Source: an uncultured Christensenellaceae bacterium
Lineage (GTDB): Bacteria > Bacillota > Clostridia > Christensenellales > UBA3700
Length of the DNA stretch: 64,000 nucleotides
Direction: 5' to 3'
Assembly: GCA_944380305.1 (NCBI GenBank)
Contig: CALWHF010000011.1
Coordinates: 1-64,000 of the forward strand
Shown here: positions 18,401 to 37,842 of the stretch, in pieces
Layout: each line of letters opens with the position of its first letter
How positions within the stretch are numbered: position 1 is the stretch's first letter
Notes under the pieces: generated by a model
Told to the model about the DNA's origin: nothing
Databases searched by the model: none
What the model saw: only the letters and a program-made list of their open reading frames with translations
Translations under genes and position numbers: made by a program

Positions 18401-21400
18401 ATGAGCAGGTTCAGAAAAACGGCGACGATCGTCCTTGCAGCGTTCATTCTCGTGATCGTGCTTTCGGCAGGCCTTGCGGCTTGCGAAAACAAAGTGCAGG
18501 TCAAGGTAACGCTGGAATACGACGGCGGCACTTTCGCGGGTGCGCTGAGGGCGGACGTCACTCTCAATTCGGGCGACACGCTCGACCTTACGCAATATTC
18601 TCCGATCAAGAAGAATTGCATTTTCGCAGGGTGGACCGACGGCAAGAATACATACAGCGGGACGTACGTCGCAGGGACGTCGGACGCGACGCTGACCGCG
18701 GTCTGGATACCCAAGACGTCGGGCAATACGCTGGACGCTCTGAAAGTGATCCTTGCGGGATTGCAGAACGAGGGAGCGTATTCGTTCGCATTCGAAGGCA
18801 GCGGTAAAGACGCTGACGGCAACGCTACGGGCATCGCGCTGAAAGCAAACGTATCCAGCGAACAGAAATACGAGCTTGCCGTCGAATTTTCGGACGGTAC
18901 GGGCGCGAAGACGGTAGGCGTATATGTGATAGACGGGATGTTCTACGTCTGGTCTCCCGAGATGGGCGGCGTCGTGCTCGAAGATTTCGACATGAATTAT
19001 ATACTCGCGCTCGCCGACCGCGTGCCCGAGGTGCTTGGCAATCTTCTCGGCGGCATAAACATCGTGGGTATGAATATCGATACGATACTCAACCTGCTTT
19101 TCAACATGTTCACTTCCACGACCGAAACGGTGATGGACGGATACACCGTATACGGCATACGGATCAACCCCAAGGGTCTTGACGGTATCGTGAGTCTGCT
19201 CAACGCGATCAATCTCGACTCTATACTCAAGGGTGCGGGTCTCAACATCAAGACGTCGGGTCTCATCACATGGTTCAGGGGCATACTTCCCGACATGACG
19301 ATAAACCTCAACGTATCCATAGACGACGTGACAGGCAAAGTCGTAGACGTGACTTCGGATGCGAAATACGAGGGTGAAGATTATTTCGAATTTACCGCCG
19401 AAAGGGCAGGTTTCTTCGCTGAAGGGGAGGTCGGGACGATAGCTCCCGAGGCACTCGAAGGTTATCAGCAGATATCTCTCGGCAACATAGATATGCACGT
19501 CGACATTGCCGTGGACAACGAGGGAGCGGATCTCGGCGCGCTTATCAACACGATAGCGGGCACGCAGGCGATCCCCGCGGGCACGCTGATGCTCGGCTCT
19601 AATCTCAATTACAGACTGTCTCTCAAGACCGCGATCGACATTGCGGGAGAAGAAAATGACGAGAACTATATCGTGCTCGAGCTGGACGAGATCAAGTCGG
19701 ACGGCACGCTTTCGCCGTTTATTTCGGCATACTATAAAGAAGGATTCGTATATATCAACGTCGACGGGCTCATCGGCGGAGTATACGCCGGCAAGGGCGT
19801 CAAGATAGGCGTCGATCTCAAAGAGCTGGTAAGCGGCGTGAAAAAGGTCGTGACGGATGCGATTGACGGGGTATTCTTCACCGAGTCGCGCGCTCTAAAC
19901 GGCAGTTCGCGGCTCGATAAAGACGGAGTGGTCGCGCTTTCTGGCACGGACGGAAACTATTACGTTTCGGACAGCGTGCTCAACTTCATAAAAGTGGTGG
20001 TCGGAGTGTTCGGCGTCGACGGCGACAAAGTCGACGTTACCGACGGTACGGACGACAACGGCAACTTCAGCGTGCTTTCGTTCGAGGTGGACAGCGAATT
20101 CCTGACCGCATTCCTTGCCGCGGTGGGAACGACGGCGACCATCCCCGATTTCGGCGACGTGATGCTGAACGTAAAGCTCGATGCCGACGGACTGGACAGC
20201 GTGAGCATCGACGCTGCTCTGAAAGGCGGCGTCAAGGCGGGGCTTTTGCTCGATTCGTTTTCGATAGGAAAGGCTCCTCAATTCGAAGGATACGATTCGA
20301 TAGCCGACTACATCGACGCAAAAGTGGGAGACGAGAGCAGATACACCTATTCTGTGAAAGAACTGGTGGCGGACGTGCTCAAGGGAGTTTCTCTCGACGT
20401 CGATGCGGAACTTTCGCTTGCTGCGGGCAAATTCAATCTGATGGACATAGTATCGCTGTTCGGTCTCGACATAGGGGATACGGTAACTCCGTGGACTCTG
20501 ACGGCTGACAGCAAAGTCGCCGTCAATCTGGCGGCGGACGTATCCGTGGACGCGGCGACGTCCGCGTTGTCGGCAAGCATAGTGCTGACTCTAAAGGAGG
20601 ATTTCGCTCTGGGAGCGGACAAGATACTTCCCGCAGGAAAACTTCTTGCGGTATATCTGTCCGATGACGGAACGGGATACATAGACCTTTCGGGCATATC
20701 GCTCTTCGGGGCGCAGATGCCCGCGGTAAAGGCTAACATAGATCTTGAGACTGTGATTGACGGGCTGATGACGCAGCTCGATACCGACCTCGTATTTGAC
20801 GTTTCGGGACTTTTCGGAGCAGAGGAGGAGACGCTCTCGAGGCTCAACGCCGACGGATCGGCAAGCCCGCTGAATCTCGGTTCGGAAGTCACTTCCGAGG
20901 CAAGCGGTATCATAATCACTTCTAAATCGTTGCAGGTCAACCTGACTCTCGCGACCGTAAAAGCGATACTCGGCGCGTTCGGCGTCGAACTCGCTCTGCC
21001 CGACGGCATCGACGTCGGACTCGACGCGTCGCTCGACGACAAGGGTCTTGAAGTAAACGCATCCGCATCGTTGCCCGCGAGCGGAGAATACGACGCTCTG
21101 ACGCTGGGGCTTGCCGTAAGCGTGGGCGAAAACGGACTCAAAGCGGGCGTAGACGGACTCGCGGAGCAGATAAAGGCGGATATTGCCCGGAATACCGCGG
21201 GACTCGCCGACGCGCAGTCCAACGTGATCAAGGCGTTGCTCGGTACGGTCGGCAGACTGTCGATCAGCGCGGAGATAGAGGTCGGCACGGACGAAGAGGC
21301 GGACCTCGGTGCATTCGTATCCGACTTCGTAAAGAAATGGCTGCCCGATACGGGTATCGACGTTCAGATTGAGAGCGGCAAGGTAGGGTTGCAGATAGCT

Positions 21401-24400
21401 CTGAATTCCGACAGAGAAGAATACGCGGTCGTCCTGACCGAAGGCGAAGGCAACGTGTTGCTGAGCGCGCGCGTCTGCGGAGAGACGGTGGTCGTCAAAG
21501 TCGTGGACTTCGGCAGTTTCGTAATGCGTGACACGGGACTCATCGCGATGATAAAAGGCGCGGTCGACGAAGCAATCGATTCGATAGCGGGCGCAGATCT
21601 GAACACCTTGTTCGAAAATCTGCTCAACCCGTCTGAGGAACAGCCGTCCGATCCCGAACAGCCTGAGGAACCCGAACAGCCCGAGGAACCCGAACAGCCT
21701 GCGGACGAAGGAACGGGCATCGACGTCATATCGCTGCTCGGCGGCGTATCGGTGAACGATGCGGTCATTAATATTGATATTACGCGCGAAATGATAGCGA
21801 AGATCCTGGCATCGCTGGGCATAGAGGTCGATTTCGTCTCGGCAAACGGACTTATAGACGTTGCGGACGGCAGAGCCGAGATCAATGCCGACATCGGCAA
21901 CGGCGCGCTCGAGCTCGGCATAGGGCTTTCGATAGGAAAGACGGATGACGAGACGATGGATTACGGGTTTGCGACCGACCTCCTCGATGCTTACGGCGAC
22001 GCATACGTTCCCGCTGCCGAGAACGCGGCGGAACATCTGCGCGCGTACATCGAGACTAAACTCAGGGCACTCGGCGAATACCGCAGTTATATGTCTTCCT
22101 GGTCGCTTTCCGCGCTTGCCAACGAATACACGCGTTATTCCACGGGTGACGGAGTCGTGATATTCACGTCGAGAGAAGACCTGCAACAGTACGTCATGGG
22201 ACTTCTGTCGGGCATTTCGCTCGAAGCGGACGTAAACCTGGACTTTACGGCGGGAGAATACAACATACTCGATTTCGTGGGCAGGTTCGTCGATCTGACG
22301 ACGCTGGGACTTCCCGCCGATTCGTCGCTGATCGTATCGTTCGGCGAACCGAGCATAGATCTGTCGCTCAGATTCAACAGCGCGATAGTCGCTGACGGCG
22401 GCACGGCGGACGGAGTCATGGGTCTCGAGATAATCGCCAACAGACCTCTCGCTCTCGGCACCACGGTAGGCGGAGGGGAGGGCGTCACCGTCATACCCGA
22501 GGGAGAGGCACTCCTTGCGGTATACATCAGGGACGGAAGCCTGTATATCGACGTGACCGCGCTTGAGGTACTCGGGCTGAGCCTGCCGGTATTCAAGGCG
22601 GACAATTTCGATCTTCCGTCTTTCCTGTACGGCAAGATTGACGAACTCGTCTCAGGCATATTCGCAGAAGAGAATACAGAAGGAGAGGGAGGCACTTCCG
22701 TTGCGGACGTACTCGCTCTCGCAGACGGCGACGGCGGAAACGTGACGTTGATCCTCGCGCGCAACAGATTGCAGCTTTCGGTGACGATGGCGGCAATAGG
22801 CGCGTTGCTGTCCAACTTCCTGACGGGAGACGCGGCGACGACGGTTGAAGATATCCTTTCTTCGCTCGGCGACGTAAACGTTGATCTCAGCCTGCTCAGA
22901 GACGACACGGCGGGCAACGGCGTATACAACTTTACGCTTTCGGCGGGCGGCAACATCATGACCACGATAGACGGTCAGCCTTCGGCATTCGCGCTTTCGG
23001 TAGGCGCGAGCTCGGCTGACATAAAACTGGGAGACGATACGCTTTACGAGACTTTCGGCGCGTACGTCGACGGAAAGATAGCGGGTTACGACAAGACTTA
23101 TTCGGATATTCTGAGAGGCATTGCCGACAACCTGTTCAAAGGCTCGATGCTGATCGACGTAGAGGTAGATCTCAACACGGGCAAATATTATCTCAACGAG
23201 CTGGTAAACAACATTCTGTCGGCTGTTACAGACGGTTCTGAGATAGTCGTTCCGATAGCGGTCGAGACGGGCACTTTCGGCAAGGCTCTGCAACTTGCGT
23301 TGCAATGGAACCTCGATCCCGACAGCAAGCAGCTCAAGCTTATGTTCGAGGTCAGGGACGGGGACAACGTGCTGATAGGCGCGTATATGTATGACGGCGA
23401 ACTCGTGATCGATCTCACGGGAGTGGGACTGATAAGCGTCAAGGTTTCTGACGTGGCGGTTATCGATCAGCTGACGGATTCGCTTATGACAGCGATAGAC
23501 AGCCTGCAGGGACTCGATCTCAACGAACTTCTCGGAGGATTGTTCGGCGACGATCAGACGACAATGAGTCTGACGCCGAGAGACGGTTCGGAGAGCGGGG
23601 ATACGGGCAGCGCGGGAGACGCCGACGCCGCGGACAACGCATGGATAACTCAGCTGCTCGGCGTGGTCATGCTTGAGAACACGAATATCAAACTCGCGCT
23701 TTCGACCGAAATACTCGAAAACGTGATCTTCGCGCTTGCGGGCAAGAGGATAGATCTCGGCGATCTGTTCGATCTCAGCGCGAATCTCGGCATATTGTCG
23801 GGAGTAATCTCCTTTGACGCAAAGCTGTTCGGAGACGACGAGAACGCGCTCATAAGCATGAGCGTAGACGCGTCTCTCAGCAACGACACGATAGTATCCA
23901 ACGCATACATACAGGCGGTATTCATGCGCGATCACTACGAGATAAACGCAAGCGATACGGGCACGATCATCACCGACGCGATAAACAATTTCGCAGACGT
24001 GAGTTTTGCTCTCGATCTCGCACTTTCTTTCCAAAAGGGGTCTTACAATATAGCCGAACTCATATCCAAATTCGGGGTCAGCGCGCTTGCGGGCACGCAG
24101 CTGCTCTGGGAATTCACCGAAGACACGACGATTTCGCTGACGCTCGAGATAAAACTCAAACTTTATGCGGATGACGGCACCGACGGAGGAAAGAACGGGA
24201 TGGCGTCGATCGAGTTCAAGACGAAAGACGCGTTTAAGCTCGGCGTGAGTCAGCTGTTCCCCGCGGATACGGTATTGATAGGACTTTACGCATACGAAGA
24301 CGTGCTCTATCTGGACGCGGGCGGCATAAGCATACTCGGCATCGATCTGCCGGTATTCAAGGTGGATTTCGATCTGTTCGGAACGCTGATGACAAAGCTC

Positions 24401-27400
24401 AGAGAAATGGGCAATTCGGCGCAGACGCAGAGCGAACCCGTGATAGTGGCGAGCGACGAAACGGGTGAAGGAAACGACACCGTGCTGATGCCTCTCGACG
24501 ACTCCGACGGAGAGATCTCGATCGGCATAACCGAGAACGAGATCGCGGTCACTGCCGCGCTCGGAGCGATAGCGGCGGTACTCGAGGATCTCGGAGTGAA
24601 TCTCGGCGTAGATCTCGGGGCATTCGACATAACGGCGGCGATCAGGATAAAAGACGGTTTGTCGGTAGAAGTGGGAGGCGTGCTCGTTCCTTCGACGGAC
24701 GGAAGCGAAAAGCCCTTCCTTCTCTCGCTGACGATACCCGGCGACGCGCTGCAATTCGGCGTGGACGTCAATGCTCTCGGCAACTATCTGAAGCAGAAGG
24801 CGAACGCGTACAAGGATTACAACGACGATCTTATCGCGACGCTGAAAGAGACTCTCGGCAACAATTCGATAAAGGCAGACGTCACGATAGAGTCGCAGGC
24901 GAGCAAGGTGGACATGAACACGCTGATCGCAGGTATTCTCAAGACGGCGGGCATCGATCTCAACATCCCCGTAAATCTGTATTTCGACGAGATGAATTAC
25001 GAGCTTGAGCTGCTGCTCAACTGGGATATGGCGAGCCGCAAGCTGCTTCTCGAGGTCAATATAAAAGGAAAGATAAACAAAAAGACGCTTATCGGTCTGT
25101 ACGGCGACAGCAGCGATCTGTACATCGCGCTGGGCGGCGTGGGGCTCGTGGATCTGCACGTCAAGGGCTCTCCGCTCGTACCCGTGCTGTTCAACAAGCT
25201 GGACGAGGCTCTCGCGGGCATAAATCCGATAATAATTTCCGACATACTAGAAGATCTGTTCGCGGGCAAGGATCTTTCCGAAGAAAGCGCGAACATGAAT
25301 TCCGGAGAGACGCAGCCTCTCGACGGAGAAAACGCGAGTACGCTCGCGGGCGGCAACGATCTGATAAGATACCTGCTGAGTTCGCTGAAGATCACCGACA
25401 GCAAGGTGGTGGCGGATATAACCAGCGACATCATGGCGCAGATAATGCGCGCGCTCGGCATTGACATCGACTTCGTGTTCGAGGCGGGCGTAGGCGTCGA
25501 TCTTGCAGGAGACAAGATAGAGGGATACGTCAATATAGGTTCAGATTCTCAGATAGGGCTTGTGCTCGGATTAAACGGCAAACCCACGAGATTCCTGCCT
25601 TCCGACCTTTCCACCTACATCACGATAGACGCCGAGAACGGCGCGCAGGACGGCGGTCAGGTGGTCAAAGAATTTATTGACGGATTCGACTTCGCATTCT
25701 CGCTCGACCTTATGAGTGCGACTGTCGGCACTCTCGTCGACAGCTCGATGGGAGTGACGTATACCCGCGTCGAGATAAAGAAAGTGACGGGAGTCGTCGC
25801 TCTCGACAATCATTCCGAGACTGCGGGCGCGGCAGGCAAATCGGGCATATTGCTCAGCGTACTCAGCGTCAGCGAGGAAGAGTACAACTCGCACGGATCG
25901 GGTACTACCAAAGCGATGATGCACGTTTATCTGGACTATTCTGCGGGAAGTGCGACGTTATATCTGTGCCCCGGTTGGTTCGTTATCGACGTATTGATGG
26001 GAATACCTGTCGACATAACGACGTATCTGAAGTCGATGACGCTGCAACTCGATCTGCTTAATATGCTTGCACCGACAGTGGAAAATCTTATAAAGCAGGT
26101 CAACGATGCGGCAAACAATCTCGGCAACGAAGAAACTCCCGAAGAGACTCCGCCGTCGCAGGATACGGGCAGCGGCGAAGAGACCGAGCCTACGGGTATA
26201 GCGAAAGTCATAGCGGACCTCGACATCGAAGCGTTGCTTCGTCCGGGTATCGATCTCAACTTGCTTTCGACGGGAGTAACAAACCTCAATGTTAAGTTCG
26301 ATCCCTATGAACTCAACAAGCTGATAGACGGCATAATGGGCTGTCTGTTCGGTGCCGATACCATTCTCGATCTGACAACGGTCGAAGCAAACGGCGCAAA
26401 GCTGTTCTCGCAGAATTATTTGCAGAGAATGTGGTGGGATCGCCTGGCGGGAAGCAATACGGCGAGTGCTGCGGAAGGAAGTACGCCTTACAGCACATGG
26501 GACAGCATACAGAAAGATCTTAGAAATATCATCAACGACGTTCTCCCCGCAGTCGGTTACGGTAGTATATCCTGGCTGCTCGGTGTGATCGACTGGTCGG
26601 GCACGACGGGCAACTTCCACGAGATATTCAAGAGAATAACGTCTATCGCTGTATTCAACGAGGCGGAGATCAACGTAAACCTGCTTGAGGGAACGCTGGC
26701 AAACATATCGTTCATAGGCAGCGATACGGGCGCGGCTGTCACGAAGTACGAGCTCGGCAGCGACGGCGTGTGGAGAGATACGGGAGAGATATTGACTCAC
26801 AGAGTCAGATCGACGTACGCTATAAGCAGCAAACGCGACACCGACGGAGCGTATTACTACACCTATAAGTATGCGGGCAGCGGTCCCGCTGCCGAATACG
26901 GCGGCAGAGGCTTGCTCTTCCGTTCGGGTTACGCGTATTACAGCGAGAAAGGCATAGACGCCACCTACGGATACGGAGACTACAACAAGAACTACTCGCA
27001 GATCTACTATTCCAACGAGATATGGATCTACAACAAGTCTTCCACGGTCGGCGACCCGAATTATACTCTGAACGGCACCGAAGGCGCGGTAGACTGGGGC
27101 AACCTGTCCGCAAACGTCACGTTCAACCCGTATATGTATTCTTCCGAGAATCAGTATCAGGCGGCGGTAGACGAATACTGGGACAGATACTTCTCCGACT
27201 ACGGCACGGCGGTATATCAGAAGGGCACTGCGGTCAAACGCGGCACGATCTCGCTGAGCTACAACGGCAGGGCGTTCGACAAGAGCGTGCTCAAGGAGAT
27301 CATGAACAGGGCGGGCACTCACACGATAAGAGCGACTGCCACGTTCAAAGACGGCACGAGCAGCTGGACAGATCTGACGTTCAGGGTTAAGGACGTAGGC

Positions 27401-28549
27401 ACGGGCGGTCAGGACAGCGTGCGCAGCGTGGATACGGTCAATCTGCACGTCTACGAATCCGTCCCCGATTACTTCACCGTGACGACCTACTCGGGCGAGA
27501 GAGTGAAGTATTACACCGACGGCAAGACGGTGACGCTCGAAGGAGATTACAAGGCAACTAGTCCTGCGGGCGGCACGAAGACGGCGAGACTGAAATTCGC
27601 CAACGGGGCGAGCTATCCCGTCACGATAAACTACTATGACAGCACGATTAACGATCAGACGATAGACATGTCGTGGTACGACCTCGACTTCACGGGAGCA
27701 GATACCGCGGAGGGCAAGGATGCGGCGGTACAGGCTATCCTCGACAAATTCGATATGTATTACGGCGACGGAACGTTTATTCCCGAATTGCTGACCGAGA
27801 ATGCGACGTGGGATACGACCGAGCTTTACGGACTCGTCGCGAGAGACAGAGGAAATCTGTCGGCGACGACGGTAAACGTCACGGTTACTTTCGACAAGCG
27901 CATAGGTACGGACGGCACCACTCTCGAGAACGTGGAGTCGGCTCTGAGACAGACCGTAACGCTGACGCTGAACATGGAAGACAAGCGCAAACTGTCGATA
28001 GTTTACCAGGGACTGACAGAAGGCAACTATCTCAAAGTGGATCCGTACAGATATTACCTGTATATGGTCACGGGCAACGAGAGCGACAACCCGATACCGT
28101 CCACGGTCACCGCGACGTATCAGGGAGGAAAGAAGGAGACCATAAACGTTGTCACCCAATTCGCTGCGGATACCGACTGGAGCTACATGACGGCAAAAAC
28201 GGTCACCGCGACGGTGAAAATCGACCCGACGAAGTATGACGGCAAGGGTTACTTCGACGAAAATATGCAGATCAGCGTCAACATAGACCGCAACGTTATA
28301 CAGGCGGTGTATTTCGACGACGCGAAGACGCAGGACTACATCGTCAGAGGAGAGAAGTACGCTGTCGCAACGGTCGTCTTCACCAACGGACTCGAACTGA
28401 AGATGCCGGTAGCGGTGGTTGAAAACGGAAACGAAGCGGACGTATACATCGGATTTGACGTCGAAACGTATACGACATACGGCAAGATAGCCACGTTCAG
28501 CGGTATAAACGGCACTTTGTTGCAGGCGTTTACCGTACAGATAAGATAA
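18401..28549 (+). CDS. giant modular surface lipoprotein, 3382 aa
   Basis: A signal sequence ending in the lipobox LAAC (Cys28) should anchor the N-terminus to the outer membrane face. Residues 33-100 are one Listeria-Bacteroides (InlB B-type) repeat. Residues 110 to about 2560 hold nine degenerate modules averaging 290 residues, each with an 'LxGxYxxDGxLYIDLxG'-type strand pair. Acidic linkers rich in E, G, S, T and P separate many modules (for example a P-E-Q linker encoded at 21633-21700). Residues 2560 to 3382 hold a unique region and then several Ig-like beta domains. There is no LPXTG motif or C-terminal membrane helix. I do not recognise the module family; it resembles LppX/LolA-like or beta-groove proteins only in strand pattern. 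The next giant gene begins 18 bp after its stop, so the two are co-transcribed. Adhesin, envelope scaffold and lipid carrier are all possible. Confidence 0.9.
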   Translation: MSRFRKTATIVLAAFILVIVLSAGLAACENKVQVKVTLEYDGGTFAGALRADVTLNSGDTLDLTQYSPIKKNCIFAGWTDGKNTYSGTYVAGTSDATLTAVWIPKTSGNTLDALKVILAGLQNEGAYSFAFEGSGKDADGNATGIALKANVSSEQKYELAVEFSDGTGAKTVGVYVIDGMFYVWSPEMGGVVLEDFDMNYILALADRVPEVLGNLLGGINIVGMNIDTILNLLFNMFTSTTETVMDGYTVYGIRINPKGLDGIVSLLNAINLDSILKGAGLNIKTSGLITWFRGILPDMTINLNVSIDDVTGKVVDVTSDAKYEGEDYFEFTAERAGFFAEGEVGTIAPEALEGYQQISLGNIDMHVDIAVDNEGADLGALINTIAGTQAIPAGTLMLGSNLNYRLSLKTAIDIAGEENDENYIVLELDEIKSDGTLSPFISAYYKEGFVYINVDGLIGGVYAGKGVKIGVDLKELVSGVKKVVTDAIDGVFFTESRALNGSSRLDKDGVVALSGTDGNYYVSDSVLNFIKVVVGVFGVDGDKVDVTDGTDDNGNFSVLSFEVDSEFLTAFLAAVGTTATIPDFGDVMLNVKLDADGLDSVSIDAALKGGVKAGLLLDSFSIGKAPQFEGYDSIADYIDAKVGDESRYTYSVKELVADVLKGVSLDVDAELSLAAGKFNLMDIVSLFGLDIGDTVTPWTLTADSKVAVNLAADVSVDAATSALSASIVLTLKEDFALGADKILPAGKLLAVYLSDDGTGYIDLSGISLFGAQMPAVKANIDLETVIDGLMTQLDTDLVFDVSGLFGAEEETLSRLNADGSASPLNLGSEVTSEASGIIITSKSLQVNLTLATVKAILGAFGVELALPDGIDVGLDASLDDKGLEVNASASLPASGEYDALTLGLAVSVGENGLKAGVDGLAEQIKADIARNTAGLADAQSNVIKALLGTVGRLSISAEIEVGTDEEADLGAFVSDFVKKWLPDTGIDVQIESGKVGLQIALNSDREEYAVVLTEGEGNVLLSARVCGETVVVKVVDFGSFVMRDTGLIAMIKGAVDEAIDSIAGADLNTLFENLLNPSEEQPSDPEQPEEPEQPEEPEQPADEGTGIDVISLLGGVSVNDAVINIDITREMIAKILASLGIEVDFVSANGLIDVADGRAEINADIGNGALELGIGLSIGKTDDETMDYGFATDLLDAYGDAYVPAAENAAEHLRAYIETKLRALGEYRSYMSSWSLSALANEYTRYSTGDGVVIFTSREDLQQYVMGLLSGISLEADVNLDFTAGEYNILDFVGRFVDLTTLGLPADSSLIVSFGEPSIDLSLRFNSAIVADGGTADGVMGLEIIANRPLALGTTVGGGEGVTVIPEGEALLAVYIRDGSLYIDVTALEVLGLSLPVFKADNFDLPSFLYGKIDELVSGIFAEENTEGEGGTSVADVLALADGDGGNVTLILARNRLQLSVTMAAIGALLSNFLTGDAATTVEDILSSLGDVNVDLSLLRDDTAGNGVYNFTLSAGGNIMTTIDGQPSAFALSVGASSADIKLGDDTLYETFGAYVDGKIAGYDKTYSDILRGIADNLFKGSMLIDVEVDLNTGKYYLNELVNNILSAVTDGSEIVVPIAVETGTFGKALQLALQWNLDPDSKQLKLMFEVRDGDNVLIGAYMYDGELVIDLTGVGLISVKVSDVAVIDQLTDSLMTAIDSLQGLDLNELLGGLFGDDQTTMSLTPRDGSESGDTGSAGDADAADNAWITQLLGVVMLENTNIKLALSTEILENVIFALAGKRIDLGDLFDLSANLGILSGVISFDAKLFGDDENALISMSVDASLSNDTIVSNAYIQAVFMRDHYEINASDTGTIITDAINNFADVSFALDLALSFQKGSYNIAELISKFGVSALAGTQLLWEFTEDTTISLTLEIKLKLYADDGTDGGKNGMASIEFKTKDAFKLGVSQLFPADTVLIGLYAYEDVLYLDAGGISILGIDLPVFKVDFDLFGTLMTKLREMGNSAQTQSEPVIVASDETGEGNDTVLMPLDDSDGEISIGITENEIAVTAALGAIAAVLEDLGVNLGVDLGAFDITAAIRIKDGLSVEVGGVLVPSTDGSEKPFLLSLTIPGDALQFGVDVNALGNYLKQKANAYKDYNDDLIATLKETLGNNSIKADVTIESQASKVDMNTLIAGILKTAGIDLNIPVNLYFDEMNYELELLLNWDMASRKLLLEVNIKGKINKKTLIGLYGDSSDLYIALGGVGLVDLHVKGSPLVPVLFNKLDEALAGINPIIISDILEDLFAGKDLSEESANMNSGETQPLDGENASTLAGGNDLIRYLLSSLKITDSKVVADITSDIMAQIMRALGIDIDFVFEAGVGVDLAGDKIEGYVNIGSDSQIGLVLGLNGKPTRFLPSDLSTYITIDAENGAQDGGQVVKEFIDGFDFAFSLDLMSATVGTLVDSSMGVTYTRVEIKKVTGVVALDNHSETAGAAGKSGILLSVLSVSEEEYNSHGSGTTKAMMHVYLDYSAGSATLYLCPGWFVIDVLMGIPVDITTYLKSMTLQLDLLNMLAPTVENLIKQVNDAANNLGNEETPEETPPSQDTGSGEETEPTGIAKVIADLDIEALLRPGIDLNLLSTGVTNLNVKFDPYELNKLIDGIMGCLFGADTILDLTTVEANGAKLFSQNYLQRMWWDRLAGSNTASAAEGSTPYSTWDSIQKDLRNIINDVLPAVGYGSISWLLGVIDWSGTTGNFHEIFKRITSIAVFNEAEINVNLLEGTLANISFIGSDTGAAVTKYELGSDGVWRDTGEILTHRVRSTYAISSKRDTDGAYYYTYKYAGSGPAAEYGGRGLLFRSGYAYYSEKGIDATYGYGDYNKNYSQIYYSNEIWIYNKSSTVGDPNYTLNGTEGAVDWGNLSANVTFNPYMYSSENQYQAAVDEYWDRYFSDYGTAVYQKGTAVKRGTISLSYNGRAFDKSVLKEIMNRAGTHTIRATATFKDGTSSWTDLTFRVKDVGTGGQDSVRSVDTVNLHVYESVPDYFTVTTYSGERVKYYTDGKTVTLEGDYKATSPAGGTKTARLKFANGASYPVTINYYDSTINDQTIDMSWYDLDFTGADTAEGKDAAVQAILDKFDMYYGDGTFIPELLTENATWDTTELYGLVARDRGNLSATTVNVTVTFDKRIGTDGTTLENVESALRQTVTLTLNMEDKRKLSIVYQGLTEGNYLKVDPYRYYLYMVTGNESDNPIPSTVTATYQGGKKETINVVTQFAADTDWSYMTAKTVTATVKIDPTKYDGKGYFDENMQISVNIDRNVIQAVYFDDAKTQDYIVRGEKYAVATVVFTNGLELKMPVAVVENGNEADVYIGFDVETYTTYGKIATFSGINGTLLQAFTVQIR
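18880..26000 (+). repeat. nine protein-level modules of about 290 aa in the giant lipoprotein
   Basis: The marker strand pair recurs at about residues 172, 446, 749, 1018, 1372, 1658, 1959, 2229 and 2508, that is, intervals of 274, 303, 269, 354, 286, 301, 270 and 279. Modules 3, 5 and 7 share an A form (marker followed by 'LPVFK.D.DL'). Modules 4, 6 and 8 share a B form (marker followed by 'GVGLI.V' and an 'L..AL/I' helix). Each marker is preceded by an 'S...D..L....G.YN...L...FG' segment and followed by an 'I..A/T...I..AL..LG.....L' helix. The DNA is too diverged for these to be recent duplications. Confidence 0.75.
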
Positions 28550-28567
28550 CAAGCAGGAGAGAGTATT

Positions 28568-31500
28568 ATGAGTAAGACTAAGAAGAAATTGTTTTATTCG
28601 GCAATCGTAGCGGTAGCGATACTGCTGGCTTTCGTAGCGGCGGTATTCGTGACGGCTCCGCAAGGCGCGATCGTCAGCGAGACGGGAGAATGGCAGTCGC
28701 CGCTCAATACCGTCAACGTCGGGATGTCCGCATCGGAAGCGGCTGTAGAGACGAGTATCGGCGGACCGGGAACGGTAGCTGATTCCGACAAGGTCACAAA
28801 CAATTTGGTAAGCGGAGCCAAGCCGATAAACGATGCACAAGATCTGGAAGACGCTTTGAAGAACGGAGGAACGCATTATCTTACGACCAGTTTCAGTTAC
28901 GATGCATCGCAGTCGTCGAGTTCTTCTGCGGCTAGCGGCAGTTTTGACGGCGTTATATACGGAAACGGTCATACGATAACGGTAAACATCGGGGAGAGCA
29001 TTTCATACGATGCAAGCTCTTCCGACGGAACGTACGGGTTTATCGTCAAGACTTTGTCGGGAGGTACAATCAGAGATCTGAACGTCGTCATCTCATCTTA
29101 TACTTCGTCTTATTCCAGATTCGGCATCAAACTTTCGACGATGAAGTATCAAGATCAGCCCGAAAGAAACAGAGGTGTTAATCAGGCGTACAAAGCCTGC
29201 ATCGGCGGTATAGCGGGAGAGGTGACGAACAACGGCGTGATACACAACTGTACAGTCACTTACCAAGGAAATCTCGCGCTTGTCAACAACGGTGCCGTAC
29301 CGGGCAGTGCGAATGCAGTCGAATGGGGGAAGAACTGCGTTTATTATTTCGGCGGTATCGTAGGATCGGCAGAGGATTCCACGATAATGTATTCCGAGGT
29401 CAATTATGACGGCAACGTCGTTCACGCGGGTCAGCTCAACAAAGGCGGCAGCAATATGATGATAGCTACCGGCGGTGTCGCGGGCAGAGTCAACGGCAGC
29501 GCGGTGATGCGCAAGACATACGTCCAGGGCAGCGGTATCCTCGCAAGCGAAGGACATATTACTTCGCAAGGTTGGACGACCAGTGTCCCCAGCAGCGATT
29601 TCTACACAGGAGGTATCGTAGGCTGGGTATCGGTCAACGGTTCTCTCGACGTCAACGGCGTATACCTCAACCTGACGCATCTGTCCACTTCGAGCGAAGG
29701 ATCGCCGTGGGGCGGTACCAACAATATGAGTCAAGGCAGTTCCGGTGCGATCAAGACGTATTTTTACGCGTATGACAACGCAAGCGGATCACACGGTATC
29801 ACGCAATGGTACGACAGCATGCAAAACGATTCAAAATCAAACATAAGCTCGAGCGAAAACGCGCATATGATGCGCTCGTCTTACGGCGTCGGTGCTGCGC
29901 AGACGGGCAGGACGGTGAAACTCAGCAACGTCTACGTTTCCTCTCAGATGGACAACGTGATAAAGCAGCATCACCCTTATGCCGTCAACTATATACAGCA
30001 GGGCGTTTCGTCGACAACCTCGGCAAAGAACAACAGCGTATGGCAGAAATACAGATGGGTCTACAACGTGGTTTCGAGCGAAAAGGGTATCAGCGACTTC
30101 GAATTCTCTCCTTATTCGAATTCGGGACGTATCAGCGGAACTTCGTTGACAAACCTCAGGGACAATCAGAGGATAGTATATCAGAAATATCAGAACAACA
30201 GCGAAAACAACTTCGTATATAAAATAACCGTGGGCGGGGACGTCTATGACGTTTCGGGACAGACCTATAACAACTTCGGCAATGCGGGAGTGCTGTGGAT
30301 CCCCGTAAGATATACCGCTTACAACAGCACGAACAATCAGAATATAGTGGATTCGAACTACGTCGTTGCTCAGGACACCGACAACTACAGCCCGAGAGTG
30401 ATTTACGAAACTGTTGCCGAATATGCGTCTTATCTCTATATGGATTACGATATGTCGAGAGGTTACGACGGCACGGACAGAGCGTTGGACGGCTATCGGG
30501 GCAGCGGCGGCAACTATACCTACGTCTACAACGGCGAAATGTTGTACGTTCCTTCGTTTGCGGGTTACCTGACGGGATACGGCACCGGCGGAAAGATAAT
30601 CTTCGATCAGGACGAACTCAACTCAATACTCGGCAGTTCGACCAACTTCTCGCTCTCTTCGTCGAATACGATAGTCAATTCGAGCACGGTGGAATACAGT
30701 CAGTATAAGTGGATACACTGGCAGAACGCGGGCAACGTCGGTATATATTCGATGTCGTACAACAAGCCTGCCGACAGCGGGCCGAAGTTTATCACCAAAG
30801 ACGGCAAGAATTATTATTGCGCGCTTGACGGCGATTATACGAACAAGACGATCAACGTCGTGCCGTATACGCTTTCTCTCAACTGGAATGCGGACGGTTT
30901 CGTCTACAACGGCGCGACCAAGGACGTGACGGCGACTTTTGCGTCGATGCCTTCGGCGAGAAACGAGATAAATCTCGGCAACAACGATGCGGATAAGCTC
31001 GGCGTTGCGCTGGCATATTCGGCGGACAATCCCGCTCTTCTCGAAAACAACAAGCCGTATCACGCGGGTCAATACACCGTAACGGCAAACCTGACCTACA
31101 ACAACACGACCGAAGACCCGATGAAGGGCAACTTCGAGCTGCCCGATTCGTCGTATTCGTTCAGCGTGGGCCAGGTGCAGATGACGGTAAGTCCCAGCGA
31201 CGTGGTATCCGTTTACGGTAATACTCATACCGACGCGCTGGCAGGAGCAAAAGTAACGGTCGGCGGCGATTGGGTAGGCGAAGATTCGGCGTTCTTCACG
31301 TTCAGCGTAAAGACGGTGGACGACACCGTAGGTTTCGCGACGAAGACGGGAGATTACCCGACCACGGTAACGGCGTCTCTGACAGAGGGCGCGGTCGCTG
31401 AAAAACTGGGCGATTACGAGTTCGCGGTCACGGAAGGCAAACTCACGATAGAGGCAAGACCGATAAACGGCGTTCTGAGCATAAACGAAGGCGTTTACAA

Positions 31501-34500
31501 CGGTTCCGAATACGCCGCTACGCTTGCGCTCGAGGACGGCGTCAGGGTCAGCACCGACAGCGTGTACACGCTCGATTACGAGAAGAACGGCGAGACGGCG
31601 GGCTACGTCGTCAACGCGGGCGAATATCTGATCAGGATCACGCCCGAAGCGGACAAATATAAAATAGGAACGATAATAATTCAAGGTAAAGACGAGATCT
31701 ACGAGAACGGCGTTACAAAGCTCACCGTTGAGCAGAGAAACGTCGATGTGACTCTCGCGTTCGACAACGGTTACGTTTACGACGGCGCGAACAAGGTCAC
31801 TTCGGTCGCTCTCCAGCAGCAGGAAGGCAACGCGGGTATCCTCAACGGAGAAAGCGTACAGGCGATTATGAGCTACAACGGCGAGGCAGAGGCGATATTC
31901 CCCGCGGCGTATGCGACGAGCGTGACTTTCGACAGCTCCAACTACAAGGCGGGCACGATCGCGGGCGGTGAGTTCACGATCGAGAGAGCAGAGCTTACCG
32001 TCAACGTGGACAGCGACAGCGCGACGTACGACGGCACGGGCAAAAATATAGGCTACACTCTCGTTGGCGTGGCGAACGAAGAGGATATGCTCGCTCTCGT
32101 CGGCACCGTTACGGTGACTTATAACGCGGCTGCGACCGCTCCCGTAAACGCTGGAGTTTACGCGGTCGAGATCGTCGTAGCCGAAGGCAAGGCGTACAAA
32201 GCGACTTCCGTTTCGGCTCAGTTTACCGTGAACAAGGCGCAGATAGCTTTCGAGCCTGTCAGAGAGACGGTATATACGGGCAAGGATATTTCGCCCGAGT
32301 ATGCGATAACCGCTCCCGGAATGGACGATGCGTCCTCGCTGGAGAGTTTCGTCACCGAGAGCCACAGCGTTATACACAACGCGACGACCTACGACGTAAA
32401 GCTGAGTTTTGCGGGTACGAACAACTACGAGCCGAAAGAGGAGACGTATCAGCTCACCGTAAAGCGTGCGGATCTTTCGGTATCTCTCGACGACGCGCAG
32501 ATGCTGACTTATAACGGCGGCGCGCAGACGCCCGTCTATTCGGTCTCCGCTCTCGCGGAGGACGACGAGTACGGTGCGGTCACACTCACGACGGCGGGAG
32601 ACGGACTTGTCGAAGGCAATGCGGTCAACGCGGGTTCGTACACCTTCACGCTCGCTATCGAAGAGAGCACCAACTACAATGCGGTTGACATGACCGTGTC
32701 GTTTACGATAGAAAAATACAGACTCACCGTGATAGGCGCGTCGGAGCAGTTCATTCCCGTGATAAACGAGAACGAGACCTCGGTCACGGCGATAGAAAGG
32801 TATCTGCCTTCTCTCGACGTGGTTCTTGTAGACGCGACGGGCGTTTATGACAACGGCAGTCTGGCTTACGCGACCAAAGTCGGCGATGCTCCCGCAAGCG
32901 AGATCGTGTTCTCCGACGGTAAAGGAGTATTTACCGCGGATATAACGGTGAACGGTCTCGACGAGAACAACTACGCGTTCGATACGGTGACGATCATTGT
33001 CAACGTGCTTGACGCGAGCATAAAGATAACCGTCAACGGGGAAGAGACGGTGCTCGCTGAGGCGGTATTCGGCGACGCTCTCGAAATTTCCGCTAAAGGA
33101 CGTTACGGAGAAAACGCCGAAGAGGACGTTCAGTCCGTGACGTGGTACGCCAAAGGCGAGAGCGGCGAATACAACGTCGAGCTCGGCGCGGAAGTTCCGA
33201 CCGATGCGGGAGAATATATGGCGTCGTTCAGATATACGTTCGGTCAGGACAGCAACTACGTTGCCAGAGCACTTTATCTGGCTATTTCTCCCAAGGCGGT
33301 CAACGTGACGCTCGACGGAAGCAGTGTGTCGATAATTTACGGCGACGAGCCCGTTCTCGACGGGGCGACTTACAGCTCGGACGACAACGGAATAACGCTT
33401 GAGATAACCTATTCGACCGACGCGGTACGTTATTCCGAGGTCGGCGCGTACAATCTGTACGGAGAGATCGCGGGAGTAAAGACGGGAGACGTTGACGGCA
33501 AGACGTCCAATTACTCGTTTACGGTTGAGAACGGCAAGGTCAACGTGGTTCCCAAGACGGTTTACCTCAAGGCAGACAACGTGTCAGCGACTTACGGCGA
33601 CGAGGTTATATTCTCTAGCTTTACCGTTTATGAAGACGACGGCTCTACGGTATGGTCAGGATACGCCGACGCGGCGAAGATAAAGGCGACTTTCTCGGTT
33701 CAGAGCGGAATTCTGACGGTTGGCGAGTACGACGTTTCGATCAGCGGCGAAAACGCGAATTACAACGTGATGTCCGTGACCGAGAAGGGAAAACTCACGA
33801 TAGAAAAGCGCAGGATAGTGCTGACGGTAGACGACGTTTCGGTGGTCTACGGCTCGACAGAACTTCCCGTATTCAAGGGCAGCATAATAGAAGGCAATCT
33901 CGTCAACGGCGATTCCCTCGGCTCGGTCACGGGCACATACAACGAGGAAGTGACCGCGCTCGGCGAGCTTGGCGTAAACGACGGAGGATACGTTCTTACC
34001 GAATACGTCACCCTCAAAGAGACGCTGGTCAGCGCGCAACAGGGCGACAATTACGAAATATCTTTCGCCGATACTTCTAAAATTTTCGTTACGCCGAAAC
34101 ATATAGTCGTTACGTTCATCGGCTGGCAGTCTGATGGGGCTCTCGGCATTGACAGCGCGACTTACAACGCGAAGGAGTGGACGCCGTCCGCAACTCTAGA
34201 AGGCGTGATCAACAATGACGAAGTCAGCGTCGTGTTCGACGCGGGCGAAGTGAAAAACGCCGGCTCGTACTCTAAAGTGCTGACGCTCGGAGGCGCAGAC
34301 GCTGACAATTATTACGCAGACAGCTGCACAGCTTCTCTCGAGATACTGCCTTACAAGACGGAAATATCCGTCGGAGACGTGGCCGAATACGTTTACGAAT
34401 ACGGCGAAGGAAAGACGGCGATTGACGCGAGCGTCAGACTTCTCGACGGTGACTCGCAGGACGGTTCTTTCGTTCAGAAAAACTACGTCGGCACCGAAAC

Positions 34501-37500
34501 CGGCGTGACGGGCATACAGGTGTCCTGGGACAGCGTGTGGAATGCAGGCGTTTACACCGTAGTCATCGCGTACAGCGGAGTCAATTACGTCGCGGATCCC
34601 GTTACCGTAAGCATCACGGTAGAAAAGAAAGTGCTCGCTAAAGTCGATCCCAAACAGATCGGCAACGGCAGCTCGGTCTACAATGCGACAAACATCAGTC
34701 TGACGGCGGCAGACGTCGCGGATATGTCTGCTTTCGAAGGACTCGAAGACTATATCTACATAGTGATCGCTCTCAACGGTAATCCCGCTACCGTGATCAG
34801 GAATGTGGGCAACTATACCGTCGATCTCAGACTGGCGGACAACGGTAATTACGAGATAGACGGCGGAGGCGATTCGCTGCTCAACACTCTCGCAACCTAC
34901 GAGATTACAAAGGCGGACGCGAGCAACCTCGGTTTTTCGCTTACATTCGGCAACAAACTCTATGACGGTACAGACATGACCGAGTATATCAAGTCCGTGA
35001 TAGCCGTCAGCGGTATAGGCGGAGAACCCGTAACGGGTGCGACGTTGCAGCTCGTGATAAAGAACGGGAACGGAGAAGAGGATATACCTCTCAATTCCGG
35101 AGTGTACAAGATAGAGGTTGCAGCGTCCGGAATGACAAATTACAACGATACGCAGATGAACGAGGCGGGCGATTTTACTATCGACAAAGTATACGTCGCC
35201 GCGGACATGATCACGCTCGACAACAAGACGACGGTTTACAATGCGGCGGAGCAGACGCTCGGCGCGAACGGGATTGTCGACAGCGCGGTCCTTCTCAAAG
35301 TGGAATACGAGTATACCGCGACTGACTTCTCGTCCTTTACGGGTGCGATCGACGCCGGTAAATATCAGGTTAGGATGAGGGTGCTTTTCGACAAACTCAA
35401 TTCGAGATTCAGCGACGACGTTACTCCTAACGAGGTCAACGATCCGGACTTTGGTGACGTGTACGAATTCGTGTTTACGGCAGAGCTCGACATCACCGCG
35501 ACTACTCCGACGATCTCTCTCGACAAGAACACTCTCGCAAATTACTTTGACGGTTACGGACATTCGATAGAATTTACGCTTTCGGGCGTTGGCAACGATT
35601 CGACGATGGCTTCTGCTTACGACGTATCGTTAGGCGTTGACAACGCTGTTACGATAGAAGGTCTCGGCTCGTTTACCGTCAGCTATTATACCGACGCCGC
35701 TTACGGCAACAAACTCGTGGATACGTCGGGTGCTGCTGCCGTGCCGACCACGGTGCTGCTCTCGGACGGAAAGACGCAGCCGTATTACATGATGGTACAG
35801 TTCGTTTCCGAAAATCCCAACTATTCCGACTTCGAATACAAGAACAGCGGCTACGATATGGCTCTTTACATTATGCAGTCCGTCGTCACTCTGTCTTTCG
35901 GCAGTCTGTCTGTACAGTACGGTCAGCTGGGTTCTCAGGCTGCGGCTAACGAGTACGTCAAGAACAACATGACCTACACCTATACCGTAAACGACGAGGG
36001 CAGCGCGTCCGTCAATTACGATCCCGAGGCAATGCTCGAGATCAGCTACAACCTTACTTCGTTCGACGTCAATGCCGGCACTTACGACATAGCGATCTCG
36101 GCGGTCGCGGCAAAGACGGAATTCGCAAGTTCCGTCACGGCTGTCATAAGGAACGCAAACAACGTCAAACTCACCGTAACCCCCGCAGACGTGACGGATG
36201 CGATGAAGGCTACGTTCGTCGGCACGGAGGACAGCTACGGCAACAAGACGTATACCGAGAGCGACTTCGCATGGCAGCTCAAGGGCATAAGAAACGAAGA
36301 CGTCGCCTACACGGTCAGCTACAACGGCGAGAGCGAGTTCTCGATCTCCGACGCGGGCGAGTACGATATAGACATTGCCATCTCCTCAGGCAACTACAAG
36401 GCGTGGACGGGCAGCGTGAAACTGGTTATAAACAAAGTGGGCGTAGACGTGGTATGGACTCTCGGCGGCGAAGAACCCGTCAACGGAGTGCTCTCCAAGA
36501 CTTACGACGGCAGACCCGCGGAACTTACAGTTACCGTGGCGGGAGTCGAAGGACTCGAGGCTGATTACGTTTACGTCAATTCCGAAGGCACAGAGATCGA
36601 CGCTCCCTACGTCGTAGGCTCTCACAGGGCAAAGGCGGTGCTCGCTAACGATAACTATTACATCAATTCAGGTTCCGAATACGTTACGGTCGAGATAGGT
36701 TACGTCGAGCTCGACGAGGCGACGATCAGAGAGTGGATCTCCGACGACAGCGACGTATACGGTTCGGTACAAGGTATCGACATAACCGGTCTTCCCGAGG
36801 GATACGGTGCGGCGTCCGTGGTCTACACCGACGGCGTCGACACCTACGATTCCGAGACGATAAAGACGGCTAAGGCGGGCACTTACAGCGCGACCGTCAC
36901 GGTCAGCAACGCAAGCAGCTCAGGCAGCGCGGTATTCACCTATACGATAGAGAAAATGGGCGTGACGTTCACGGTAAACGCATCCGTCGCGTTCGGCAAG
37001 AAACCGACTGCGGCAGACGTTAAGATGGGTTCAGACAAGGCTCTCGCGAGCGGCGATACGGCAAGCGTTTCCGAGGTAACGTTTACATCCGCTTATAACG
37101 AGAAACTCGCGTTCGGTACATACTCGATGAAGGACTACTTCGCGTCCGTGACCGTAGCGTTCAACCGCAATGCAGATTGCTACGTCTACAAGATAGTTAT
37201 GGGCACGTTCACGGTAACGCCTTCGTCGGCACCCGAAATATCCGAGGTCGGCGCGAACTACAACACCGCGACCGTCAAACTCCCCACCGAAGGCGTATAT
37301 GCTTACAAGATCGGTGTCAGAGGCACATGGACGACGATGAGCAGCGCGAGCGATACGATTCTGGTAGCGGGGCTGAATGCAAACACTTCGTACACCGTTT
37401 ACGTCGCTTACGCAGGGTTTACGGACAGCTATTCTACCAAGACATTTACTACTACGGCAGATCCCGCGAAGCTTTCAGAGATGATCGAAGAGATCAACGA

Positions 37501-37819
37501 AGGCGGACTGACGCTCGAAAAGCAGGAACAGTACGACAGCATTCTCGCATATTACGAGACGATTGCCGAATCTGACAGAGCGGAAATACAGGCAGAATAC
37601 GATGCTCTCGTGGCACAGTTCAACGCGCTTAAAGAGAATCAGGGCGAAAGCGGCGGCGAAGTTTCTCCGAAACCCGTTGAAATCGATGCGGCGGTGCTTG
37701 CAGTCTGCATAGTATGTATCGTACTGATAGTCGCATCCGTGGCAGGAGTAATTGCGGCGGCGATCGTCAGAAAGCGCAGAGAAAAAAACGCTTTGAAATC
37801 CGACGGAAATCTCGTCTGA
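28568..37819 (+). CDS. giant MBG-repeat surface protein with C-terminal membrane anchor, 3083 aa
   Basis: Starts behind AGGAGAG, 18 bp after the previous giant gene. Residues 1-32 are a signal sequence without a lipobox. Residues 120-360 contain GLUG-like beta-helix repeats (GGIAGEV, GGIVGSAED, GGVAGRV, GGIVGWVS). Residues 360-770 are S/N/Y-rich. About 22 MBG-type beta repeats of about 95 residues span about 775-2885, each beginning 'Y[ND]G' or 'YG' and carrying 'NAG.Y.V', often ending 'FTIEKA.LTV'. An Fn3-like domain follows near 2885-2960, then a short helical hairpin, then a hydrophobic segment of about 25 residues and a basic tail (RKRREK). There is no LPXTG, so it is anchored by a membrane helix rather than sortase. 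The architecture suggests a long fibrous adhesin with its stalk in the cell wall; the ligand is unknown. Confidence 0.92.
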   Translation: MSKTKKKLFYSAIVAVAILLAFVAAVFVTAPQGAIVSETGEWQSPLNTVNVGMSASEAAVETSIGGPGTVADSDKVTNNLVSGAKPINDAQDLEDALKNGGTHYLTTSFSYDASQSSSSSAASGSFDGVIYGNGHTITVNIGESISYDASSSDGTYGFIVKTLSGGTIRDLNVVISSYTSSYSRFGIKLSTMKYQDQPERNRGVNQAYKACIGGIAGEVTNNGVIHNCTVTYQGNLALVNNGAVPGSANAVEWGKNCVYYFGGIVGSAEDSTIMYSEVNYDGNVVHAGQLNKGGSNMMIATGGVAGRVNGSAVMRKTYVQGSGILASEGHITSQGWTTSVPSSDFYTGGIVGWVSVNGSLDVNGVYLNLTHLSTSSEGSPWGGTNNMSQGSSGAIKTYFYAYDNASGSHGITQWYDSMQNDSKSNISSSENAHMMRSSYGVGAAQTGRTVKLSNVYVSSQMDNVIKQHHPYAVNYIQQGVSSTTSAKNNSVWQKYRWVYNVVSSEKGISDFEFSPYSNSGRISGTSLTNLRDNQRIVYQKYQNNSENNFVYKITVGGDVYDVSGQTYNNFGNAGVLWIPVRYTAYNSTNNQNIVDSNYVVAQDTDNYSPRVIYETVAEYASYLYMDYDMSRGYDGTDRALDGYRGSGGNYTYVYNGEMLYVPSFAGYLTGYGTGGKIIFDQDELNSILGSSTNFSLSSSNTIVNSSTVEYSQYKWIHWQNAGNVGIYSMSYNKPADSGPKFITKDGKNYYCALDGDYTNKTINVVPYTLSLNWNADGFVYNGATKDVTATFASMPSARNEINLGNNDADKLGVALAYSADNPALLENNKPYHAGQYTVTANLTYNNTTEDPMKGNFELPDSSYSFSVGQVQMTVSPSDVVSVYGNTHTDALAGAKVTVGGDWVGEDSAFFTFSVKTVDDTVGFATKTGDYPTTVTASLTEGAVAEKLGDYEFAVTEGKLTIEARPINGVLSINEGVYNGSEYAATLALEDGVRVSTDSVYTLDYEKNGETAGYVVNAGEYLIRITPEADKYKIGTIIIQGKDEIYENGVTKLTVEQRNVDVTLAFDNGYVYDGANKVTSVALQQQEGNAGILNGESVQAIMSYNGEAEAIFPAAYATSVTFDSSNYKAGTIAGGEFTIERAELTVNVDSDSATYDGTGKNIGYTLVGVANEEDMLALVGTVTVTYNAAATAPVNAGVYAVEIVVAEGKAYKATSVSAQFTVNKAQIAFEPVRETVYTGKDISPEYAITAPGMDDASSLESFVTESHSVIHNATTYDVKLSFAGTNNYEPKEETYQLTVKRADLSVSLDDAQMLTYNGGAQTPVYSVSALAEDDEYGAVTLTTAGDGLVEGNAVNAGSYTFTLAIEESTNYNAVDMTVSFTIEKYRLTVIGASEQFIPVINENETSVTAIERYLPSLDVVLVDATGVYDNGSLAYATKVGDAPASEIVFSDGKGVFTADITVNGLDENNYAFDTVTIIVNVLDASIKITVNGEETVLAEAVFGDALEISAKGRYGENAEEDVQSVTWYAKGESGEYNVELGAEVPTDAGEYMASFRYTFGQDSNYVARALYLAISPKAVNVTLDGSSVSIIYGDEPVLDGATYSSDDNGITLEITYSTDAVRYSEVGAYNLYGEIAGVKTGDVDGKTSNYSFTVENGKVNVVPKTVYLKADNVSATYGDEVIFSSFTVYEDDGSTVWSGYADAAKIKATFSVQSGILTVGEYDVSISGENANYNVMSVTEKGKLTIEKRRIVLTVDDVSVVYGSTELPVFKGSIIEGNLVNGDSLGSVTGTYNEEVTALGELGVNDGGYVLTEYVTLKETLVSAQQGDNYEISFADTSKIFVTPKHIVVTFIGWQSDGALGIDSATYNAKEWTPSATLEGVINNDEVSVVFDAGEVKNAGSYSKVLTLGGADADNYYADSCTASLEILPYKTEISVGDVAEYVYEYGEGKTAIDASVRLLDGDSQDGSFVQKNYVGTETGVTGIQVSWDSVWNAGVYTVVIAYSGVNYVADPVTVSITVEKKVLAKVDPKQIGNGSSVYNATNISLTAADVADMSAFEGLEDYIYIVIALNGNPATVIRNVGNYTVDLRLADNGNYEIDGGGDSLLNTLATYEITKADASNLGFSLTFGNKLYDGTDMTEYIKSVIAVSGIGGEPVTGATLQLVIKNGNGEEDIPLNSGVYKIEVAASGMTNYNDTQMNEAGDFTIDKVYVAADMITLDNKTTVYNAAEQTLGANGIVDSAVLLKVEYEYTATDFSSFTGAIDAGKYQVRMRVLFDKLNSRFSDDVTPNEVNDPDFGDVYEFVFTAELDITATTPTISLDKNTLANYFDGYGHSIEFTLSGVGNDSTMASAYDVSLGVDNAVTIEGLGSFTVSYYTDAAYGNKLVDTSGAAAVPTTVLLSDGKTQPYYMMVQFVSENPNYSDFEYKNSGYDMALYIMQSVVTLSFGSLSVQYGQLGSQAAANEYVKNNMTYTYTVNDEGSASVNYDPEAMLEISYNLTSFDVNAGTYDIAISAVAAKTEFASSVTAVIRNANNVKLTVTPADVTDAMKATFVGTEDSYGNKTYTESDFAWQLKGIRNEDVAYTVSYNGESEFSISDAGEYDIDIAISSGNYKAWTGSVKLVINKVGVDVVWTLGGEEPVNGVLSKTYDGRPAELTVTVAGVEGLEADYVYVNSEGTEIDAPYVVGSHRAKAVLANDNYYINSGSEYVTVEIGYVELDEATIREWISDDSDVYGSVQGIDITGLPEGYGAASVVYTDGVDTYDSETIKTAKAGTYSATVTVSNASSSGSAVFTYTIEKMGVTFTVNASVAFGKKPTAADVKMGSDKALASGDTASVSEVTFTSAYNEKLAFGTYSMKDYFASVTVAFNRNADCYVYKIVMGTFTVTPSSAPEISEVGANYNTATVKLPTEGVYAYKIGVRGTWTTMSSASDTILVAGLNANTSYTVYVAYAGFTDSYSTKTFTTTADPAKLSEMIEEINEGGLTLEKQEQYDSILAYYETIAESDRAEIQAEYDALVAQFNALKENQGESGGEVSPKPVEIDAAVLAVCIVCIVLIVASVAGVIAAAIVRKRREKNALKSDGNLV
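30890..37220 (+). repeat. about 22 tandem MBG-type repeats in the second giant protein
   Basis: Repeats of roughly 95 residues with a 'YNG/YDG/YG' opening strand, 'NAG.Y' core and 'NY' turn. Openings include FVYNG, GVYNG, YVYDG, ATYDG, TVYTG, LTYNG, ATYGD, VVYGS, SVYNA, KLYDG, TVYNA and KTYDG. The copies are diverged at both DNA and protein level. Confidence 0.75.
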
Positions 37820-37842
37820 AGCAAAGATAGGATGTAAAATAA

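Follow-up and report, generated by a model that had tools for sequence, protein, structure and literature searches.

Why would a bacterium encode two giant surface proteins side by side, one predicted to be held by a lipid at its N-terminus and the other by a membrane helix at its C-terminus? The question is raised by two genes, here called P1 and P2, in a stretch of 64,000 nucleotides (the window; positions 1 to 64,000 of contig CALWHF010000011.1, assembly GCA_944380305.1) from an uncultured Christensenellaceae bacterium, whose genome of 1.94 Mb lies in 33 contigs and is 92% complete; the pair makes up about 1% of this 1.9 Mb genome. The original prediction, made from the window by itself, proposed that the two products build a joint structure on the cell surface. 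Our analysis makes it somewhat probable that P1 and P2 are two halves of one surface stalk, whose antiparallel chains span the same distance, since constant pairing, a fixed opposite polarity of the anchors and matched lengths are what is expected if two chains run side by side. Handles in brackets (G, C, L, f) are our own for genomes, contigs, loci and families. The features that carry the argument are the following (aa, amino acids; bp, base pairs).

18401..28549, + strand: P1, giant lipoprotein of 3382 aa (open reading frame call; family in 45/46 genomes)
18401..18484, + strand: lipoprotein signal peptide and lipobox LAAC with predicted lipidated Cys28 (codon 18482-18484)
28550..28567, + strand: intergenic gap of 18 bp with ribosome-binding site AGGAG (28555-28559)
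28568..37819, + strand: P2, giant surface protein of 3083 aa with a predicted N-terminal signal peptide (open reading frame call)
37688..37768, + strand: predicted transmembrane segment of P2, residues 3041-3067, then a basic tail (hydropathy; without LPXTG)

Two giants with opposite anchor signals

Both reading frames are present at the lengths and positions first claimed for them, and the gap of 18 bp was confirmed on re-measurement. Chance open reading frames were ruled out, since dozens of relatives retain the frames and the lengths of the orthologues stay within about 2% (3338-3400 aa for P1, n=28; 3053-3093 aa for P2, n=32). Diverged duplicates were likewise ruled out, in agreement with the original prediction, as P1 and P2 have no significant mutual similarity (best BLASTP E 0.47). 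The signal sequence of P1 ends in LAAC, which makes it a bacterial lipoprotein by the presence of a signal peptide ending in a lipobox with cysteine, and the lipobox is found in 28/28 full-length orthologues. P2 begins with a hydrophobic signal sequence that has no lipobox, and at its other end a 27-residue hydrophobic segment precedes RKRREK. The opposite anchoring predicted earlier stands for both proteins. A simple hydropathy rule, rather than a trained predictor, served to assign signal peptides and membrane helices.

Constant pairing in the family

Matches to the P1 family occur in 45/46 genomes of the GTDB family, including all 34 of the good ones, and the window's own genome (G000) holds three copies. 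In a sample of the order, 75/297 genomes match, those outside the family weakly (best E 4e-20) and in part. Searches of the class (391 genomes) and of the phylum (398 genomes), in which no more than two first-look candidates were scored in each genome, gave matches only in the window's own genome and, for the class, in one other genome of the same order. The ends of the family members are conserved and the middle is variable. A total of 58 lipoprotein genes, from loci picked among the matches listed and from the genus orthologues, were tabulated by their similarity to P1 or its two paralogues, regardless of the neighbour; matches in G001, G005, G028 and G030 and one each in G003 (C8) and G019 (C101) were left unopened, and G043 has none.

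The original prediction had named independent occurrence of the two genes in most relatives as an argument against a joint system. The downstream gene is fully readable in 56 cases from 39 genomes, and in 56/56 it encodes a giant protein (1208-4477 aa) on the same strand, at a distance of -53 to +223 bp. Hydrophobic helices were called at both the N- and C-terminus in 55/56 partners (in G006 no C-terminal helix was called), a lipobox is present in 54/55 family lipoproteins (the exception ends in YGC), and a lipobox-like match is found in 2/57 partners. Partners have diverged to 17-27% identity to P2 (15 compared), and their alignment keeps an N-terminal DGNG-type consensus, located in the beta-helix of P2. 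The length counts below exclude the genes of G018 (at a contig end) and G019 (whose partner is truncated by one), and those of G016 and G023, in which the first part of P2 stands beside P1 at a contig end, are outside the P1-group count.

Co-occurrence of the orthologues was also examined in the 12 other genomes of the genus, and P1 and P2 are present or absent together in 12/12. Nine genomes have both: six as a complete adjacent pair, two with P1 followed by the start of P2 before the contig ends, and one on different contigs; the three others (G013, G015, G018) have neither orthologue and show paralogue-level matches only. Identity falls to about 44% among P1 orthologues and, within the first 800 residues, is 41-47% in 26/32 P2 orthologues.

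Length co-scaling of the two proteins

The lengths of lipoprotein and partner rise together (Spearman 0.94 over 56 pairs), an additional argument for a joint structure that was absent from the original prediction. Averaging by group (12 groups) gives 0.97, and leaving out the largest group gives 0.96; the groups were drawn by genus and lipoprotein length, so that their means are not wholly independent of one of the two variables. Within groups, the length deviations (48) correlate at 0.59. Pure phylogenetic inertia was weighed by independent contrasts on a 56-tip lipoprotein tree, which gave r 0.916, a value reached in 0/2000 permutations, and r 0.66 once the five most influential contrasts were dropped. 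At 27 loci with a third giant gene, which cover a narrow length range, the correlation is 0.74 between lipoprotein and partner, 0.36 between lipoprotein and third giant, and 0.43 between partner and third giant. Thirteen genomes carry two or three pairs, and 21/21 within-genome length comparisons are concordant, which rules out co-scaling as a genome-wide effect of long-gene genomes.

In the main rival explanation, P1 and P2 would instead be two co-regulated, physically independent surface proteins, for which the operon would serve just to have both produced, and whose lengths follow a shared outside constraint, such as the thickness of the wall or capsule. A shared external thickness could yield co-scaling without contact, and the absence of sequence similarity between P1 and P2 and the third giant at 27 loci agree with independence. 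However, the rank-matching of different-size pairs to their own partners within one genome is not predicted by a single wall thickness, so this explanation accounts for the gene order and not for the internal matching of several pairs per genome; we judge it unlikely.

Points against a joint stalk

The partial dependence of the group means on lipoprotein length and the drop of the contrast correlation weigh against the stalk, as do the following observations. The window's group is outlying in its length ratio (0.91 versus 0.61-0.77 elsewhere), the third giant means that the unit is perhaps not strictly a pair at some loci, and the fold prediction of P1 is poor (mean predicted local distance difference test, pLDDT, 53; predicted template modelling score, pTM, 0.35). 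The pairing fails in 4/5 distant loci of other families and is therefore not universal in the order, as the giant lipoproteins of f24 (three loci) and f3 (one locus) have no such partner; the sequence in G300 (f3) covers the open frame alone and is uninformative on a partner. At one of these four loci (G093) the next gene encodes a large secreted protein in which no C-terminal helix was called and which has a metallopeptidase-like HEMGH stretch (found by eye). The pair of f16 (G060, another GTDB family) fits in size, with a protein of 10531 aa ahead of one of about 6370 aa that has a C-terminal helix, but this partner starts with a lipobox-like FVGC, which would break the anchor rule. The joint structure of the original prediction is thus upheld in part, by the constant pairing, the opposite anchors and the length co-scaling within the family, and not by four of the five distant loci.

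In other families of the order, distant relatives of P1 reach 13,588 aa in single open frames, the longest with a lipobox IAAC; their loci include G277:C2:100847-141613 (L150-L152) and others in G175, G229, G114, G209 and G060.

Transcription signals

37841..37872, + strand: intrinsic terminator with a 14-pair stem
18284..18312, + strand: promoter-like site TTGAAT, 17 nt, TACAAT, with extended -10 (TGCTACAAT; match and upstream conservation)

P1 and P2 are probably co-transcribed from one promoter, as judged from the signals around them. The strong terminator claimed after P2 was found with its coordinates shifted by 2 bp. The promoter claimed upstream of P1 fared less evenly: the extended -10 box TGNTANAAT is common to the window and 8/8 aligned orthologue upstream regions, the surroundings of which are mostly not conserved, but the match at 18284-18312 is weak by itself, with five promoter matches found versus 2.4 expected. 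A transcription start and terminator between the genes was the other argument against it that the original prediction had named; neither a forward terminator nor a promoter match was found in the gap, which measures 16-25 bp in 7/7 complete loci, the window included, and leaves no room for either. The nearest promoter match (29043-29070) lies inside P2 and is at chance level (one found versus 1.5 expected). Rfam and tRNA searches of the window gave no match.

Repeats of P1

18743..26800, + strand: tandem repeats, each about 300 aa long, arranged in a super-repeat of about 600 aa, residues ~115-2800 (profile self-comparison, E to 1e-22)
21638..21705, + strand: short Glu/Pro-rich linker repeat (EQPEEP), repeat family D5
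26801..28546, + strand: C-terminal part of P1, residues 2801-3382, Ig-like (immunoglobulin-like) only by analogy

The repeats of both proteins rest on profile comparison, as a BLASTP self-comparison listed no internal repeats in P1 or P2. In the P1 model the repeats show a helix plus an antiparallel beta-meander, which makes a LolA-like fold a candidate at low confidence. Foldseek gave no match at E <= 0.001 with this model, and 28 of the 50 structural matches listed were named LolA, LolB, LolA-like, LppX, LprF, LprG, RseB or MucB, with similarity at noise level only. Residues 2801-3382 may be Ig-like by analogy with the family: weak matches to the Ig-like Big_4 were obtained in 10/14 members (E up to 1, best 9.1e-7) and to Listeria-Bacteroides repeats in 3/14, and P1 itself has no Pfam match, Big_4 included. 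A weak internal repeat pairs residues 2898-2998 with 3149-3256 (probability 14% in the profile self-comparison).

The prevalence of LolA/LppX-type names among the structural matches, the lipoprotein anchor and the helix-plus-meander pattern all speak for another function, in which P1 would be a lipid-handling relay whose tandem half-barrels move lipid or lipoprotein outward, with P2 as a scaffold. Given matches at the level just described, we regard such a relay as improbable.

Domains of P2

28799..29698, + strand: right-handed beta-helix of GLUG type, residues ~78-377
30899..36979, + strand: MBG-like Ig repeats, residues ~778-2804 (14 matched stretches, three of them query units, in profile self-comparison)

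The N-terminal beta-helix of P2 is close to the beta-helix of IgA1 proteases in the predicted model, in which it is the only confident part (mean pLDDT of the whole model 54.5). With the whole model, the best Foldseek match had E 1.4e-3 and probability 1.00, and none reached E <= 0.001; the sequence search against solved structures gave nothing meaningful. The Pfam GLUG motif has no match in P2 and matches 1/16 partners at E <= 0.05, below the cut-off. MBG_3 reaches 17.8 bits in P2 versus a cut-off of 25, and among the partners MBG_3 is found in 6/16 and MBG_2 in 4/16 at E <= 0.05. No peptidase family of Pfam or NCBIfam was matched in P2 at E <= 0.1, and P2 thus has no M26 peptidase domain by these searches. 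P2 might also be chiefly a polysaccharide-active enzyme, with the beta-helix cutting glycans and P1 keeping either the enzyme or its substrate at the surface; the beta-helix is the feature on which this proposal draws, and we consider it highly improbable.

Covalent anchoring of P2 to the wall through LPXTG and sortase was ruled out, as LPXTG is absent from the last 100 aa of 32/32 P2 orthologues and sortase had no match in the window's genome (92% complete), with control matches in three named genomes. Omp85 also had no match there (its absence is not absolute at this completeness), with control matches in seven named genomes. The lack of both matches fits a single-membrane cell that holds its surface proteins by a lipid or a membrane helix.

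In many P2 orthologues a Cys-X-X-Cys is kept within the membrane helix (window 37688-37816), and the short tail carries acidic residues close to its end, frequently as DGxLV or GDDF.

Neighbouring genes

The named orthologues (eight loci) come from metagenome-assembled genomes of uncultured Christensenellaceae, uncultured Christensenella and Candidatus Ornithoclostridium excrementipullorum, in the order Christensenellales of the Clostridia; the genus name Ornithoclostridium occurs in a chicken-gut study (PMC8035907). Of the six named loci that were long enough for the comparison, five keep the neighbourhood of glycerol-3-phosphate dehydrogenase-like genes, FGGY kinase, major facilitator superfamily (MFS) transporter, DegV, acetyl-CoA hydrolase, P1, P2 and melibiase, which differs at the sixth (L118). 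The dehydrogenase-like genes and the FGGY kinase lie at 8303-12897 in the window, upstream of the pair. Similar upstream genes are found at L106 and L107, short pairs of another genus that the lipoprotein tree keeps apart from the window's pair.

Downstream of the pair in 27 loci lies the third giant, which measures 1.3-2.6 thousand aa and has an N-terminal helix, for example at L181:6950-13660 on the - strand. In many loci the giants are followed by a small protein (about 161-187 aa) that has an N-terminal helix (e.g. G020:C3 L167, G000:C5 L180); two of these were read and are lipoproteins without convincing Pfam match, and none is present at the window's pair. Among the six upstream genes, an OmpR-type regulator and/or a histidine kinase occurs in 28/55 rows, some of which are pieces of one locus (e.g. 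L058:4423-6349, L009:15753-17885, L069:5835-7831), and neither is found among the seven genes scanned upstream of the window's pair. At the C5 locus of the window's genome, a giant of 3658 aa with N- and C-terminal helices lies about 2 kb upstream of the lipoprotein (G000:C5:78763-89739, L111), so helix-anchored giants flank the lipoprotein on both sides. In genus g5, several genomes have a gene for an NlpC/P60 plus SH3 lipoprotein on the upstream side of the pair (e.g. L058:2688-3545).

A model of the proposed stalk

In the proposed stalk, the N-terminal lipid of P1 would sit in the outer leaflet of the single cell membrane and P2 would be anchored by its C-terminal helix, both chains running outward next to each other, antiparallel, and covering the same distance. 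The beta-rich repeats of P1 may form a supporting rod, and the Ig-like repeats of P2 would raise its N-terminal beta-helix to the tip, where the C-terminus of P1 would also lie and where the beta-helix may bind glycans or host surfaces. The match in length would arise because both proteins span the same distance and touch. Gene order, predicted anchor signals and their polarity, pairing throughout the family and co-scaling are read directly from the genomes, and contact between P1 and P2 and binding at the tip are what we infer from them. We put forward more tentatively, as a possibility somewhat short of even, that two unrelated antiparallel giants set each other's length and form a two-strand molecular ruler, which would hold a beta-helix head at fixed height, with several rulers of differing height per cell, and which would be a previously undescribed surface machine in Christensenellales.

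Throughout this family of uncultured bacteria, some genomes of which carry three pairs, two unrelated giants are tied by the order of their genes, by anchor signals at opposite ends and by matching lengths. They form a natural length series, from 1.7/1.2 to 10.5/6.4 thousand residues, with which to ask how bacteria set display height, and they are a concrete candidate for the means by which a cell in which no sortase was detected touches host or food surfaces.

Comparison with known systems

The original prediction knew of no described pair with this architecture, and our search of open-access papers, with preprints and most subscription journals outside it, likewise found no description. The matrix-binding protein of Staphylococcus aureus is named Ebh. 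Giant bacterial surface proteins are known as a class, exemplified by this protein of nearly 10,000 aa (PMC11573180, accessible part) and including the surface class of giant genes of Reva and Tummler, as cited in the same text. P1 and P2 are likewise very long and predicted to be surface-located; the examples in that part of PMC11573180 are single proteins, whereas P1 and P2 form a jointly encoded pair with opposite anchors and co-scaling lengths.

The beta-helix of P2 resembles the GLUG-type beta-helix of IgA1 proteases (3n6z, 7uvk, 6xja). Unlike these enzymes, P2 has no matched peptidase family, and its beta-helix is carried by an MBG-like stalk that has a C-terminal membrane helix, with a giant lipoprotein as neighbour. 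P2 and its partner homologues share tandem Ig-like repeats with surface proteins of the MBG and bacterial Ig-like type, from which P2 differs in being paired and length-matched with a lipoprotein and in having neither LPXTG nor a sortase match in the genome. The repeats of the P1 model share a helix and an antiparallel beta-meander with the lipid-carrying half-barrels of the LolA/LppX/LprG superfamily, a similarity at noise level only, and P1 differs in having many tandem copies in one giant lipoprotein. Giant surface proteins as a class, the beta-helix and MBG domains are thus already known, and the length-matched pair has a fair chance of being a kind of its own.
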